DNA of 64,000 nucleotides. Source: Ohtaekwangia koreensis. Its GTDB lineage: Bacteria; Bacteroidota; Bacteroidia; Cytophagales; Cyclobacteriaceae. Location of the stretch: contig NZ_FUZU01000002.1 of assembly GCF_900167975.1 (NCBI RefSeq), forward strand, positions 875,501 through 939,500, written 5' to 3'. The position numbers and the translations under genes are program-made. The notes under the pieces were generated by a model, which was not told where the DNA came from, searched no databases, and saw only the letters and a program-made list of their open reading frames with translations. This document shows, one piece after another, positions 7,049 through 42,448 of this stretch (within the stretch, counting starts at the first letter, position 1; each line of letters begins with the position of its first letter).

Positions 7049-8191
7049 ATGAATATAGCTTCCCGCTTACCGGATATAGGTACCTCTATATTTTCGATTA
7101 TGTCGAAGATGGCGCTCGATCATGGTGCCATTAATCTCTCACAAGGCTTCCCTGATTTCAGCATTGATGAGAAGATTATCCACATGGTGCAGCGCTATAT
7201 GCTCGAAGGCAACAATCAGTATGCGCCTATGCCAGGCGCTCCTGCCCTTCGGAATATAATTGCCAAGGTAATTGAGAACACCTATACCCATACGGTAAAT
7301 CCGGAAACGGAGATCACCATTACAGCCGGAGCTACGGAAGGTATATTTGCTATTATAGCAGCTTTTATAAGTCCGGGTGATGAAGTTATTCTGTTTGATC
7401 CTTCTTACGATTCTTATAACCCGTCAATCCGATTGAATGGCGGTATACCGATTCACATCAACGTATCGCCTCCGGATTTTTCCATTGACTGGGATATAGT
7501 TCGGTCTAAAATTTCGTCACGCACAAAAATGATCATCATCAACACGCCCCATAATCCGTGCGGGTCGGTGTTACATGAAAAAGATCTGCGGGCGTTGGAG
7601 CAGATTGTACTGGAACATAACCTGCTTGTGCTAAGTGATGAAGTATACGAACGACTCATCTTTGATGGAATAAAACATCAAAGTGTACTGCGCTATAAGG
7701 CCCTTGCTTCAAGAGCCCTTGCTGTATTTTCATTTGGAAAAACATTTCATGCAACGGGATGGAAGGCTGGCTATGTAGTAGCACCCGAGTACCTTACAAA
7801 AGAAGTACGCAAGACACATCAATTTATAGTCTTCAGTGTAAATACACCGGTGCAGCTGGCGCTGGCAGAGTATATGCAGACACGTGATCATTACGAATCA
7901 CTCGGAACGTTCTACCAGAAGAAACGTGATTTTTTCCTGGAGCATATCAAAGGATCATCGTTCGAGCCGTTGCCGTGTAACGGTTCCTATTTTCAATTGG
8001 TATCCTATAAAAACATTTCCAAAAAAGGCGATGTGGAAATGGCGGAAGAGATAACCAAAAAGTTCAAGGTAGCGTCCATTCCGGTATCGGTTTTCTATCA
8101 GGATAGAACTGATAATCACCTGCTGCGTTTTTGTTTTGCCAAGATGGAGGAGACACTGGAACGTGCATGTGAGATCCTCCGGAAGATATAA
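7049..8191 (+). CDS. Class I/II aminotransferase, methionine / glutamine transaminase K type
   Basis: A 380-residue PLP-dependent enzyme of fold type I. Landmarks are INLSQGFPDF near the N-terminus, AGATEGIFA, NTPHNPCGSV, the aspartate and tyrosine in LSDEVYERL, and the PLP-binding lysine in SFGKTFHATGWKAGY. The profile resembles YbdL and the kynurenine/glutamine transaminase K group, which transfer amino groups from methionine, glutamine or aromatic amino acids to keto acids. The following nitrilase-like gene fits an omega-amidase that would hydrolyse the alpha-ketoglutaramate formed from glutamine. Substrate is inferred. Confidence 0.85.
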   Translation: MNIASRLPDIGTSIFSIMSKMALDHGAINLSQGFPDFSIDEKIIHMVQRYMLEGNNQYAPMPGAPALRNIIAKVIENTYTHTVNPETEITITAGATEGIFAIIAAFISPGDEVILFDPSYDSYNPSIRLNGGIPIHINVSPPDFSIDWDIVRSKISSRTKMIIINTPHNPCGSVLHEKDLRALEQIVLEHNLLVLSDEVYERLIFDGIKHQSVLRYKALASRALAVFSFGKTFHATGWKAGYVVAPEYLTKEVRKTHQFIVFSVNTPVQLALAEYMQTRDHYESLGTFYQKKRDFFLEHIKGSSFEPLPCNGSYFQLVSYKNISKKGDVEMAEEITKKFKVASIPVSVFYQDRTDNHLLRFCFAKMEETLERACEILRKI

Positions 8192-37758: not shown

Positions 37759-38877
37759 ATGAACGTATCAGCCAACTCCATTAAATTCTCCCCTTTACGT
37801 GGCGATTTTTTCTCAACATTAAATCAACGGGTGAATGAGTACTTCAAGAGCAACAATATATCCCGATATGCAAATTCGGAGATGAAGGTCAAGACAGCGT
37901 TTATGTACTTGCTGTACTTTGCTCCCTATATATTGATGATCACTGGTACAATAAGCAACGGATGGCTTATGCTGCTTCTTTGTTTTATTATGGGGTGTGG
38001 CCTTGCAGGAATTGGACTGTCGGTAATGCATGATGCAAACCACGGCGCATATTCCAATAAGAAATGGGTAAATCAATTGCTCGGATATTCTTTAAATGTA
38101 GTAGGCGGAAATGCCTTTAACTGGAAGGTTCAACATAACGTACTGCATCATACCTATACCAATATACATGATGTAGATGAAGACATCAGCCCGCGTGGTG
38201 TTTTGCGCATGACACCCTATAGCGACTGGAAAATTATACACAAGTTCCAGCATATATATGCCTGGTTCCTGTACGGGTTAATGACTTTTGTGTGGGTGTT
38301 TATAAAAGATTTCGTACGCCTCATCCGCTACCAGAAAGATGGTTTGGTAAAAAATCAGAAAGCAGATATTCGTGAAGAGTGGACAATCCTGATTGTAACG
38401 AAAGTGGTATATCTTATATATATGGTGGCGATTCCTCTATGGATTCTGCCTGTTAATGGTTGGCAATGGTTTGCTGGATTTTTCCTGATGCATTATATAG
38501 CTGGTTTTATACTGGCTGTTATCTTTCAACCGGCTCACGTTATTGATGGAACAGAATATCCGTTACCAAACGAAGAAGGAAGAATGGAAAACAGCTGGGC
38601 GATCCATCAGTTACATACTACCACTAATTTTGCAAACAAAAACAAAATACTTTCGTGGTATGTAGGTGGATTGAACTACCAGGTAGAACATCATTTGTTC
38701 CCGAATGTTTGCCACGTACATTACCGACATATCTCGAAGATCGTAGAGCAAACTGCGAAAGAGTTCGGGCTTCCCTATAAATCAGAACCAACGTTTATAG
38801 GTGCACTGGTAGGACATGGAAAGTTGTTGAAAGAATTAGGAAGAAATCCGAAGACGCAACTTACTCCGGCACTATAG
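37759..38877 (+). CDS. Membrane fatty-acid desaturase (acyl-CoA / linoleoyl-CoA desaturase type)
   Basis: A 372-residue membrane enzyme with four or so helices and all three histidine boxes that hold the di-iron centre: HDANH at 91-95, HNVLHH at 126-131 and QVEHH at 308-312. The glutamine in the third box is usual for front-end desaturases and relatives. There is no cytochrome b5 domain. It introduces a double bond in fatty acyl chains; position is unknown. Its 3' end overlaps the convergent STN-repeat gene by six bases. Confidence 0.92.
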   Translation: MNVSANSIKFSPLRGDFFSTLNQRVNEYFKSNNISRYANSEMKVKTAFMYLLYFAPYILMITGTISNGWLMLLLCFIMGCGLAGIGLSVMHDANHGAYSNKKWVNQLLGYSLNVVGGNAFNWKVQHNVLHHTYTNIHDVDEDISPRGVLRMTPYSDWKIIHKFQHIYAWFLYGLMTFVWVFIKDFVRLIRYQKDGLVKNQKADIREEWTILIVTKVVYLIYMVAIPLWILPVNGWQWFAGFFLMHYIAGFILAVIFQPAHVIDGTEYPLPNEEGRMENSWAIHQLHTTTNFANKNKILSWYVGGLNYQVEHHLFPNVCHVHYRHISKIVEQTAKEFGLPYKSEPTFIGALVGHGKLLKELGRNPKTQLTPAL

Positions 38878-40779
38878 GAATCGAATACCGATTTTTCCTC
38901 CCCACCACATTTTCGAATTGATGTCGTTGCTGTAGGTGTGTTCAGAGAAAAAATGAGGTTTGTAGTCTGTGAACAATTCAGGATAATCCTGGTAGGTCAC
39001 ATCTGTAAGATGGACATTTAAGGTAACGCCAGCGGTGACCGACATCTTTTTTGCAAACTGATAATCAACACCTACATATAGTTTGTTGATCATGTTGATG
39101 GCGTCTGTCCAATTGCCTTTTACAACCTGGTTCGCGGTGAGATCTATATTCATAAAAAGCTTACGCGAAAGCTTGGGTGCTGTACCGAGACCGTAGCCAA
39201 ATGTCCAGATAGTTTCCTCGTCTCCAAACGTCTCAGGTTTGGCTCCAGCCGTAAGAATGTTATAGAACTGCCGTACTCCCGTGCGGAAAGCCACGTTAGT
39301 ATAAAACACTTCATCAGCAGACACTTCAATTTTATGATACCCGCCTCTGCTGGTAATACTTAAAAATCCGACAGGTACTCCTTGTATACTATCGGATATA
39401 TTCAGCAATCCGATTTGTGTGCCTCTTACTTTTGTAGCATAATTTACAACACCAAGCTGTACACCGCGTATGCGCTTACCCACTACGTTGAGAAGGCCTG
39501 ATACCTGAGCGCCATCTATATTTCCCCCCACAAAATTTACCAGCCCGCTAACCTGCGCTCCGTCTGTAAAAGATCTCCCCGTGAAATTAAGCATACCTGC
39601 AACCTGCGTTGTACTTGCATTGTCAGTTGAAAAATTAAAAAGTCCGGCTAAGCTCGGACCTTCCTGTTTCCCTAATGTAGCATTACCCCAGCCGGCAGCC
39701 CGCCATCCACGAGAGTCTCGAAGACCGAGATTGAGAAAGCCGGCTAGCGCTACTGTTCGTGAAGTATCAGCGTTGAAATTTAAAAATCCTGCAGCCTGCA
39801 CGCCCTCCACATAATCGAAGTTAGAATTGAGCATGCCTGCCAGTTGCACACCTCTTGTCTTACCAGCCACACCATTGAAGAGTCCTGCAATCTGTACACC
39901 ATGAACATCGCCACGCACCGTGTTGAACAAGCCACCGATTTCAAGTTTTTCTACACCCAGTGAATATCCACCGAGCATGTTCAATGAATAATCATTGGTG
40001 ATATTACCGCTGAGTTTGTGATTGGTACCAATAAACGGAATCAGTGAAAACTGAAAATGACGATGTAGAGTATCGTCAATGTTGATCATGTTTATAGCTT
40101 GAATGGTGGCGCTCTTGGTCACTATCCAAAATCGTTTTAGTTTCTTTCCGACACTGTCTGCGATGACGTTGAACTTTTCTTTATCGATCCTGATCGGGAC
40201 GTTGAGCAATCCTCTTCCATCGCCCGGAACCATCACAACCGTGTCGCTATAGTTTAGCTTTTGAACTGTGAGGCTGATCTCTTCATTGGAAGGTTTTTCA
40301 ATTTCGATCTGAAAAAAACCATATGCATCCGTAACTGCAGACGACAGAGATATAGGATCATATATACTTACGTTTTTCAATCGCTCGCCAGTGGCTTCAT
40401 CAATGATATAACCACTTAGCTTCCGTGTATCTTTTGAAATGTCTTTGGCTTTTGTAAGAATGATGTGTTTTCTCCGCTCTTTATATTGAATCGATCCTTT
40501 GAAAATATGATCGAGTATTTCGCGCACGGGCTTGTTTACAGCATTATAGGAAACAAGTTTATTCGATGCGAGTATATCTGAATTGTAAGAAAAGGTAAAG
40601 CCAGCCTGCTCACCAATCTTTTTCAACGCAGAGGCTATTGTTTCTTGCTCCAGGTTAATGGTGATAACACGTTCCAGTAAAGGTGTTTTGGGATCTTCAG
40701 CGGCCTTTCCCGGAGTGAGCAATGTCAGCAAGAGAACGACCAGGAACAAAAGTGTTCTATTGGTTTTCACAACCCTCAC
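38872..40779 (-). CDS. STN-domain outer-membrane protein with carboxypeptidase-like domain and about twelve LA_2272-like repeats
   Basis: A 635-residue exported protein, the last gene of an ECF sigma-FecR-STN operon. A signal peptide (1-27) precedes an STN domain (about 38-110, ASALKKIGEQAGFTFSYNSDIL) and a carboxypeptidase-like domain (120-200). Residues 268-480 hold about twelve units of 15-17 residues of the form GVQxAGLxN (HGVQIAGLFNG, RGVQLAGMLNS, DGAQVSGLLNV and others), like LA_2272 surface repeats and probably a solenoid. The last 130 residues look beta-stranded. There is no TonB plug or receptor signature. A signal-receiving role through FecR is inferred; what it binds is unknown. 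Confidence 0.78.
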   Translation of the reverse strand: MRVVKTNRTLLFLVVLLLTLLTPGKAAEDPKTPLLERVITINLEQETIASALKKIGEQAGFTFSYNSDILASNKLVSYNAVNKPVREILDHIFKGSIQYKERRKHIILTKAKDISKDTRKLSGYIIDEATGERLKNVSIYDPISLSSAVTDAYGFFQIEIEKPSNEEISLTVQKLNYSDTVVMVPGDGRGLLNVPIRIDKEKFNVIADSVGKKLKRFWIVTKSATIQAINMINIDDTLHRHFQFSLIPFIGTNHKLSGNITNDYSLNMLGGYSLGVEKLEIGGLFNTVRGDVHGVQIAGLFNGVAGKTRGVQLAGMLNSNFDYVEGVQAAGFLNFNADTSRTVALAGFLNLGLRDSRGWRAAGWGNATLGKQEGPSLAGLFNFSTDNASTTQVAGMLNFTGRSFTDGAQVSGLVNFVGGNIDGAQVSGLLNVVGKRIRGVQLGVVNYATKVRGTQIGLLNISDSIQGVPVGFLSITSRGGYHKIEVSADEVFYTNVAFRTGVRQFYNILTAGAKPETFGDEETIWTFGYGLGTAPKLSRKLFMNIDLTANQVVKGNWTDAINMINKLYVGVDYQFAKKMSVTAGVTLNVHLTDVTYQDYPELFTDYKPHFFSEHTYSNDINSKMWWGGKIGIRFL

Positions 40780-41764
40780 CCTCCAGAATAATTTCGGTTG
40801 AAGTTTCTCTTACCTTGAGATTTAATGTCTCAGCAATTACTTGCGCGATCTCATGAATGTCTTCGTCATTAAAAGATACTGTGAGATGACAATTCTGCAG
40901 GTTCTTTCCAATAACAATCTTAGTGTCGTAAACATGATTCAATGCTTCCACAACAGAGATCAGATCGGCATTGCTGAAACTAAAGAACTTCGTTTTATAG
41001 GAGAGTACATTGCTCTCTGGCTGTTCTATTGAAAACGTTTTGTTCTTTTTATCATAAACACCTTTGCCGCCAGCTTTCAAATGTATACCTGCATTATCTT
41101 CTGTGAAGAATTGTACTTCACCTTCCTCTACAAGAACTTCAACTGTATTGGATTCAGGGTATGCTGTTACATTGAAAGAGGTTCCTATATCACGAATGAA
41201 AACACCTTCAGCATCTACCAGAAATTTTTTGTCATCCTGGTGATTGATATTGAAGTAGGCTTCACCTTTCAGTTTTACGATATGACTTTTTTTCTTTTTG
41301 TTGTAAGAGTATGTGAGCTTCGTTTTCTTATTCAAAAATACACCACTGCCATCCGGAAGGGTATCTCCTATAGTCTGCTTTTCGGCAACAACCTCAATGG
41401 ACTTTATGGGCGCGTTCATTCCGCGGTATATAAAGAAGCTTATACTACATACAATCAATATACTTGCTGCAATCTTCAGGTATAAAAAACGTTGTGGTTG
41501 TTGTGTTGGAGGCATCGATACCTCACGTCCCTTTGGGCTGTGCAGTTTGGATCGAAGTTTACCCCATGCAGCATCGGTATCAAACTCCTGCCATTCTTTT
41601 ACTGCAGATGCTTTGACGAAAATCGTTCTGAACTGATCGACATACTTTCGATTAGTATCATTTTGTGATTGCCAGTTTTCTATATAAGCAGACTCCTCCG
41701 GTGTAGCTTCACCCGCGAGGTACTTACCAATCAGTTCGTCAATATCGTTATCGGTGTGTTGCAA
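40757..41764 (-). CDS. FecR-family anti-sigma / sigma regulator
   Basis: A 335-residue single-pass membrane protein. The cytoplasmic N-terminus (IDELIGKYLAGEATPEESAYIENW) contacts the sigma factor. A membrane helix at about residues 95-115 (YLKIAASILIVCSISFFIY) follows, then the periplasmic FecR domain (VEVLVEEGEVQFF) and a C-terminal DUF4974-like STN-related region (FSFSNADLISVVEALNHVYD). Its 3' end overlaps the STN protein gene by 23 bases. In the known systems FecR receives its signal from the STN domain of an outer-membrane transducer. Confidence 0.93.
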   Translation of the reverse strand: MQHTDNDIDELIGKYLAGEATPEESAYIENWQSQNDTNRKYVDQFRTIFVKASAVKEWQEFDTDAAWGKLRSKLHSPKGREVSMPPTQQPQRFLYLKIAASILIVCSISFFIYRGMNAPIKSIEVVAEKQTIGDTLPDGSGVFLNKKTKLTYSYNKKKKSHIVKLKGEAYFNINHQDDKKFLVDAEGVFIRDIGTSFNVTAYPESNTVEVLVEEGEVQFFTEDNAGIHLKAGGKGVYDKKNKTFSIEQPESNVLSYKTKFFSFSNADLISVVEALNHVYDTKIVIGKNLQNCHLTVSFNDEDIHEIAQVIAETLNLKVRETSTEIILEGEGCENQ

Positions 41765-41769
41765 TGCTC

Positions 41770-42348
41770 TTAGTTAAGAAACCCGTTCATCAATACAATC
41801 AATAAAGGCAGATAATCTTTCAACTGCTCGCGCATGATTTTGAGTGCTTTACCCATTTGGTTCTCTACCGTTTTTATGGAAAGATCCAGTTGGTCTGCTA
41901 TCTCTGAATATTTTAGTTCTTCGAATCTGCTGAGTTTAAAGATCAGACGGCATTGCTGCGGAAGTTTCTCCATGGCGTCATAAATACGTGTCTCCAGTTC
42001 GGAAGCTATCACAGTACGTGTGACTGACTCAACACTTTTTTCTGCGACAGCCATCTCTACTGCGGCATGTTGCTGCTTTACCTTTTCATGTTTTAACACA
42101 TTGAGACAAGCATTGCGCACCATGGCGTATAAATATGGTTTTACTGCCGTGCGTATTTCCAGATTCTCACGCTTTTCCCACACGGAAAGAAATGTAGACT
42201 GCACGATCTCTTCCGCTTCGTCACGATCCTGTACGAAGGTATATGCGTAATTACAAAGAGGTTGATAATGGGTTCTGAATAACATCTCAAAAGCAGTTAT
42301 ATCGCCAGTTCGTAGCGAGGTCAATGTTAGTTGTTCCGTGAATTCCAC
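41770..42348 (-). CDS. ECF sigma factor (FecI-like, Bacteroidota expansion family)
   Basis: A 192-residue sigma-70 family factor. Region 2 is seen in FEMLFRTHYQPLCNYAYTFVQDRDEAEEIVQSTFLSVWEKRENL and VKPYLYAMVRNACLNVLKHEK; region 4 in QQCRLIFKLSRFEELKYSEIADQLDLSIKTVENQMGKALKIMRE. The C-terminus is hydrophobic (YLPLLIVLMNGFL), common in this family. It lies five bases before the fecR gene. Confidence 0.94.
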   Translation of the reverse strand: MEFTEQLTLTSLRTGDITAFEMLFRTHYQPLCNYAYTFVQDRDEAEEIVQSTFLSVWEKRENLEIRTAVKPYLYAMVRNACLNVLKHEKVKQQHAAVEMAVAEKSVESVTRTVIASELETRIYDAMEKLPQQCRLIFKLSRFEELKYSEIADQLDLSIKTVENQMGKALKIMREQLKDYLPLLIVLMNGFLN

Positions 42349-42448
42349 TGCTTTTTGGTCTTCTTTTAACAGCGAAATTTACGTTTTTAAGCGTCTGAGG
42401 TTATGACAATCTGGAAAAGATTTACCCCTATCGGGGGAAAAAGATTTT

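Follow-up and report, generated by a model that had tools for sequence, protein, structure and literature searches.

A probable cell-surface signalling operon of Ohtaekwangia koreensis with an STN/LA_2272-repeat protein as candidate sensor

Most of what is known of FecIR signalling concerns TonB receptors, which perform it beside their main task of importing ligands. What, then, does a FecIR-like operon do when its STN protein has no receptor attached? This question is raised by three genes in a 64,000-nucleotide stretch of Ohtaekwangia koreensis DNA (the whole of which we call the window; contig NZ_FUZU01000002.1, positions 875,501 to 939,500), which follow one another head to tail on the minus strand in the order extracytoplasmic function (ECF) sigma factor, FecR and STN/LA_2272 protein (Table 1). 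An earlier note, made from the letters of the window, had described a sigma/FecR/STN-protein system in which the STN domain is followed by a carboxypeptidase-like domain and repeats, with no plug, and open reading frame and domain searches confirmed this description. The FecI-like sigma gene adjoins a FecR gene with the periplasmic FecR_C domain, as in FecIR-type systems, and the STN domain lies on a partner encoded beside FecR that is probably exported, given its hydrophobic N-terminal segment together with the STN domain and the FecR neighbour. The plug and large barrel of TonB receptors were not found, the window protein having no Plug or TonB_dep_Rec match at E ≤ 1. It matches the LA_2272_repeat model NF047436 (E 5.6e-10, 38.8 bits for a cut-off of 25) and falls far under the cut-off of the VC2662 family (NF047437; 23.5 versus 140 bits). 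We consider it probable that the three genes constitute a cell-surface signalling unit whose sensor is an outer-membrane protein other than a TonB receptor and whose regulon comprises surface proteins. We rate this unit as a variant of FecIR signalling not described before, the STN/LA_2272 architecture being undescribed in the literature searched (titles and abstract beginnings, with subscription journals and preprints mostly outside). Three observations support this reading: the co-occurrence of STN with FecR, the existence of anti-sigma fusions and a shared promoter.

Relatives of the STN/LA_2272 protein (E ≤ 1e-12) were found in 65 of the 148 genomes of the order to which the organism belongs and in 63 of the 247 genomes of its class, some of these matches being only the N-terminal part of TonB receptors or STN-less paralogues. 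We surveyed the STN plus LA_2272 architecture, as the earlier note had proposed, in a first sample of 78 regions from the order-wide matches plus two more (L149 has no LA_2272 protein, and the short-contig matches G141:C18, G129:C98 and G061:C179 were left out) and in a second sample of 20 regions picked from the best matches of the class search, which lay outside profile building; the window's own operon was excluded from all counts. A FecR gene lay within 400 bases upstream, on the same strand, of 60 of the 65 STN-bearing LA_2272 proteins of the first sample and of none of the 29 STN-less ones (57/62 versus 0/29 without the three nearest kin, L009-L011, which the Fisher test omits; 6e-19), one or more STN/FecR pairs being present in 17 of 19 families. 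The association recurred in the second sample (20/20 versus 0/8), so that FecR is found just upstream of 80 of the 85 pooled STN-bearing proteins and of none of the 37 STN-less ones, counts that represent non-independent events since several genomes are close kin. A chance neighbourhood is thereby rejected, and the earlier view that the FecR and STN genes are firmly linked holds well beyond the window; the genomic evidence argues for a strong link between the sigma factor, FecR and the STN/LA_2272 protein. The 23-base overlap between the two genes, on which that view had relied, depends on GTG 40779 being the start codon (the in-frame GTG at 40770 would leave 14 bases), and we reject it as evidence of linkage: the FecR-STN gap varies from -143 to +178 bases among relatives (median 18), so it is the adjacency that is conserved and not the overlap. 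A second LA_2272 gene, devoid of STN, follows the STN-bearing one on the same strand in L076, L077, L078, L079, L080 and L105, and in seven of the 20 loci of the class sample.

These operons also share a predicted promoter with the consensus TAGGGGTA-N14-TGTCNTA. The pair AGGGG-N16-TGTC, at one exact spacing, is present in 22 of the 69 upstream regions of operon sigma genes, whereas no gapped pair occurred in more than five sequences in any of five shuffled sets of these regions. In the window, the pattern TAGGGGTA-N13..17-TTGTC has its sole match at the site ahead of the sigma gene (shuffles average 0.02). A matrix derived from the 22 sites retrieved, at 16 bits or more, 113 sites in the 1.39 Mb of fetched loci versus 4 in shuffled DNA, and such sites stand ahead of the sigma gene in 29 and of the FecR gene in 28 of 80 operons, 57 in all; the 22 training sites are counted among these operon sites, those of LA_2272, receptor and DUF2807 genes being outside the training set. 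The sigma factor of the window presumably reads this promoter. Another matrix match in the window (7262-7295, minus strand) reaches 14.1 bits, under the threshold, and is probably due to chance.

Which other genes might this sigma factor control? Matrix sites precede 17 of the 37 STN-less LA_2272 genes, 14 of 30 proteins matching the TonB-receptor profile (a set that includes at least one other protein, L138, DUF5686) and 7 of 30 DUF2807 genes. Five of the motif-bearing STN-less LA_2272 genes are distant from the operon or sit on a different contig (G118, G143, G034, G090 and G131), and DUF2807 genes are present in 28 of 84 loci with an STN/LA_2272 protein versus none of 18 loci with STN-less LA_2272 proteins only. 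At the genome scale, the exact motif occurs at 25 sites in 18 of the 43 genomes containing a relative (eight of which were unchecked for FecR), with no hit for the reversed pattern, and is absent from the 27 genomes without a relative, where the reversed pattern has one hit. In our assignment of targets from coordinates, 12 of the 25 sites precede operon sigma or FecR genes, five precede LA_2272 genes (one of them, L240, less certain as it falls within a called open reading frame), four precede DUF2807 or DUF4097 genes, two precede genes for small exported barrel-like proteins and one a TonB receptor gene; the last, L235, has no gene start within 250 bases. Allowing one mismatch, the O. koreensis genome contains five sites: that of the operon, that of a DUF2807 gene (L203, the place of L185), L202, ahead of a 185-residue exported protein, L205, whose barrel-like target is 53% identical to target L191 of another genus, and L204, which bears one mismatch 350 bases ahead of the next start and was left out of the targets as doubtful. 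L208, with two mismatches, was chosen because a DUF2807 gene comes next and is weak evidence. Pfam gave no match at E ≤ 0.01 for L202, L205 or L191, and the related small barrel-like protein L098 matches OMP_b-brl at 3.1e-5, under the cut-off. Such a regulon of surface proteins would fit a surface or envelope response better than a single import route.

Two protein families deserve mention beside these targets (Table 1). One consists of exported barrel-like proteins of ~200-230 residues, mostly without a Pfam match, with the motif upstream of each. The other comprises TonB receptors with a carboxypeptidase-like domain and a plug and without STN, often encoded downstream of the operon and often preceded by the same promoter.

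The LA_2272 module is also found attached to sigma control in a more direct way. In five loci, it is fused to an anti-sigma-like N-terminus in proteins devoid of STN, without FecR, encoded behind a sigma gene that they overlap by 8-17 bases. Once aligned, these N-termini display a short conserved block (F-x ... E/D ... D-W ... L) and then a hydrophobic stretch (best 19-residue mean hydropathy from 1.49 to 2.41, below 1.6 in two of the five), and the linker is, by eye, long and polar. Their profile also matches sigma-adjacent proteins with other beta-rich C-termini (L158, E 7e-6; L159, E 0.006); matches to de novo designed TIM barrels were taken as a composition artefact. An anti-sigma-like N-terminus encoded beside a sigma gene is one mark of Dma anti-sigma factors, and the fused N-terminus probably binds sigma. 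That the LA_2272 module is tied to sigma control along two routes speaks most strongly, in our view, for LA_2272 proteins being able to act as sensors. The O. koreensis genome itself has a long frame with a Dma-like N-terminus (L157, C6:2005742; E 1.2e-5) immediately behind a sigma gene.

What kind of protein would act as the sensor? The earlier note had counted about twelve repeats of 16 residues at 39340-39978; LA_2272-type repeats do occupy this region, but by eye we distinguished 13 units ending at 39945, whose lengths are listed, among the 13, as nine of 16 residues, one of 15, one of 17 and the last three of 14. A scoring matrix found eight units in the window protein versus a mean of 0.1 in shuffled copies, and DNA repeat finders gave nothing convincing over the region, the repeats being visible at the protein level only. 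In an alignment of the window protein with 59 of 94 LA_2272 proteins, 50 of the 60 members match the LA_2272 repeat model and 7 match NF047435 (NCBIfam), a lipoprotein family of this repeat type (both at E ≤ 0.01), and 26 match CarbopepD_reg_2 at E ≤ 0.1. No Plug or TonB_dep_Rec model appears among the families matched by any of the 60 at E ≤ 0.1 and one member matches the SusC model (7.6e-5); an ordinary SusC-type receptor is rejected, there being neither plug nor receptor barrel. Strand-like alternation of hydrophobicity, a rough guide, is lacking in the repeats of these 60 members (z -2.1) and strong in residues 470-635 (z 3.6), with values of 0.9-1.2 for the STN domain, the carboxypeptidase-like domain and the stretch ahead of the repeats. 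The length of the repeat region clusters in ~16-residue steps (phase coherence 0.71 at period 16, 0.55 at 15 and 0.60 at 17). A loose barrel-like C-terminal assembly signal is present in 81 of the 94 family proteins versus 37 of 684 other mechanically called open reading frames of at least 200 residues, and a strict one in 47/94 versus 4/684; Pfam OMP_b-brl is matched weakly by just two of the 60 members at E ≤ 0.1 (best 3.8e-4). The last ~155 residues thus resemble the beta strands of outer-membrane proteins and end in what looks like an assembly signal, and we read the protein as a putative stack of repeats borne by a small barrel in the outer membrane. If no more than two strands lie ahead of the repeats, counting them up and down would place the repeats on the periplasmic side. 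Of the solenoid that the earlier note had proposed instead of a receptor, the missing plug and the non-alternating, stepwise repeats are retained; the barrel-like C-terminus has to be added.

Could the repeats instead be the strands of one large porin-like barrel, with no solenoid at all? The barrel-like end of the protein would agree with this, and searches against the sequences of solved structures provided no deciding relative of either the repeats or the C-terminus (one chance-level match, E 0.4, for the window protein; only PilQ and the PupA signalling domain, E 0.51 and through the STN part, for the family profile). We find it unlikely, since the repeats do not alternate as the C-terminal region does, length differences of about one repeat would flip the strand direction in an antiparallel barrel, and the same type of repeat exists in lipoproteins. 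As for function, the STN/LA_2272 protein might be an output of the sigma factor, a surface protein, with the signal entering by another route. The promoter-bearing STN-less LA_2272 genes do look like plain targets, and the N-terminal part has 13 additional matches in the O. koreensis genome at E ≤ 1e-3, mostly in open frames of ~800-1240 residues, the size of TonB receptors. Nevertheless, STN is retained just where FecR adjoins and absent elsewhere, and the fusions bind the same module to an anti-sigma domain, making this alternative quite improbable. Another idea is that the protein is a signal part split from a TonB receptor encoded next door or elsewhere, the system governing ligand uptake. 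An STN-less TonB receptor is indeed encoded within 600 bases downstream of 9 of 65 and 6 of 20 STN/LA_2272 genes in the two samples, and the motif precedes receptor genes as well, which qualifies the notion, present in the earlier note, of a repeat protein standing in for a receptor. However, no such receptor is found within this distance in the other 56 and 14 cases, the three nearest kin included, none adjoins the operon in the window, and the predicted regulon consists mostly of non-uptake genes; we hold a helper role of this kind to be highly improbable.

Several observations do weigh against a sensor unit with a surface-protein regulon. Five STN-bearing proteins have no adjoining FecR (L073, L103, L119, the second tandem copy in L125, and L139, at a contig end), 23 of the 80 operons have no promoter site, and the motif is absent from all five fused loci. 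In the O. koreensis genome, a search with up to two mismatches fell below its control (41 sites versus 86 for the reversed pattern) and is uninformative, and one of its seven FecR / TonB-receptor loci shows a weak match to the motif (L004, 12.2 bits), so that related sigma factors may read similar promoters. Finally, the TonB receptors among the predicted targets leave room for a role in uptake.

How might a signalling unit of this sort work? FecR-type proteins are bound by STN domains at their periplasmic end, and in FoxA the STN contact shields FoxR from proteolysis in the absence of signal (PMC11637429, PMC9249621). By extrapolation from the FecA, FoxA and PupB systems, the STN/LA_2272 protein, exported and presumably anchored in the outer membrane by its barrel-like C-terminal part, would dock its periplasmic STN domain on the periplasmic end of FecR, which would span the inner membrane and hold the sigma factor. 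Were something to change at the outer membrane or in the repeats, the STN-FecR contact would be altered, FecR would be cleaved or reset, and the freed sigma factor would transcribe its own operon and, in trans, genes that encode STN-less LA_2272 paralogues, small barrel-like proteins, DUF2807 (GIN) proteins and certain TonB receptors. That FecR is proteolysed, and in which direction the signal runs, is conjectural in this system; in a FoxA-like mode, the outer-membrane-anchored STN domain would keep FecR, and hence sigma, in check until the surface part changes or goes. A broader proposal, which we advance tentatively, is that outer-membrane proteins of the LA_2272 type serve as interchangeable sensor modules in a class-wide surface-surveillance response, coupled either through STN and FecR or by direct anti-sigma fusion. 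The FecR version would drive a surface-protein regulon from TAGGGGTA-N14-TGTCNTA promoters, and what it senses may be whether, and in what state, it sits in the outer membrane, not an imported ligand: once the anchor is lost or displaced, FecR would be exposed and the regulon switched on.

Table 1. Features of the operon in the window and of related loci (window positions without prefix; other loci as locus:positions)
Feature	Position	Strand	Remarks
ECF sigma factor, FecI-like Bacteroidetes group	41770..42348	-	192 residues; TIGR02985, E 2e-54
FecR-type sigma regulator	40757..41764	-	335 residues; FecR and FecR_C domains, one strong hydrophobic helix; TTG start
STN / carboxypeptidase-like / LA_2272-repeat protein, whole gene	38872..40779	-	635 residues
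STN domain, residues 61-110	40450..40599	-	Pfam STN E 3.7e-7, 30.3 bits, cut-off 28.4
Carboxypeptidase-like regulatory domain, residues 121-194	40198..40419	-	CarbopepD_reg_2 E 1.9e-6, 28.2 bits, under cut-off 32.2
Two possible membrane beta strands ahead of repeats, residues 242-272	39964..40056	-	by eye, from hydrophobicity pattern; alternation weak (z 0.9)
13 repeat units, LA_2272 type, residues 279-480	39340..39945	-	counted by eye
C-terminal barrel-like region, residues 481-635, end GGKIGIRFL	38875..39339	-	alternation (residues 470-635) and C-terminal signal
Predicted sigma promoter TAGGGGTA-N14-TGTCATA	42402..42430	-	54 bases ahead of sigma start codon; 31.8 bits, family matrix
Convergent gene beyond the STN/LA_2272 gene	37759-38877		taken by us, from histidine motifs, to be fatty-acid desaturase-like
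LA_2272 proteins fused to anti-sigma-like N-terminus	L095:6732-9038, L127:6131-7636, L143:5027-7129, L144:5241-7190, L147:382-2115		behind sigma gene
Small barrel-like family	L205:1557-2204, L191:1552-2172, L097:5383-6066, L098:3372-4028, L181:5098-5790		
STN-less TonB receptor family	L088:3810-6188, L166:3660-6050, L074:8087-10432		examples among others

The barrel-like C-terminus, the anti-sigma fusions and the promoter with its predicted regulon go beyond the earlier note. The STN-FecR wiring is here placed on an outer-membrane-like protein without import machinery, in an operon kept across many families of one class. If our reading is true, LA_2272 repeats gain a regulatory role, the DUF2807 proteins, a small barrel-like family and one TonB receptor family become grouped as likely co-regulated, and FecIR signalling is joined with the one-piece Dma anti-sigma factors.

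Among known systems, FecI-FecR-FecA resembles that of the window in its FecI-like ECF sigma factor, its FecR with FecR_C and its exported protein with an N-terminal STN domain, all encoded by neighbouring genes, as the cited accounts present it (PMC9249621, PMC11637429), and sigma self-control is likewise predicted for the window system. By contrast, the STN protein of the window carries repeats and a small barrel-like C-terminus instead of a TonB plug and receptor barrel, and surface proteins predominate among the predicted targets. The closest precedent for an STN protein that lacks a receptor barrel is PUMA3 (VreA-VreI-VreR) of Pseudomonas aeruginosa, in which, according to its published description, such a protein works with a FecR-like regulator and with an ECF sigma factor, as in the window; VreA, as described there, is small, mostly soluble and repeat-free, with a TolA/TonB-like C-terminal domain (PMC2729926). 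The window protein passes the cut-off of the LA_2272 repeat proteins, although the model names of this family and of VC2662 imply no signalling role. Lastly, the Dma anti-sigma factors of Bacteroides thetaiotaomicron are reported to consist of an anti-sigma domain, a helix, a disordered tether and a C-terminal barrel (PMC13088901), a layout that the five fused relatives appear to share (anti-sigma-like N-terminus, possible helix, long linker and barrel-like C-terminus, with the sigma gene adjoining) with LA_2272 repeats as a C-terminus new to it. The window system differs from Dma in being in three pieces, with STN and FecR, and in its sigma group, TIGR02985 as opposed to the ECF21 that this account gives for Dma partners.

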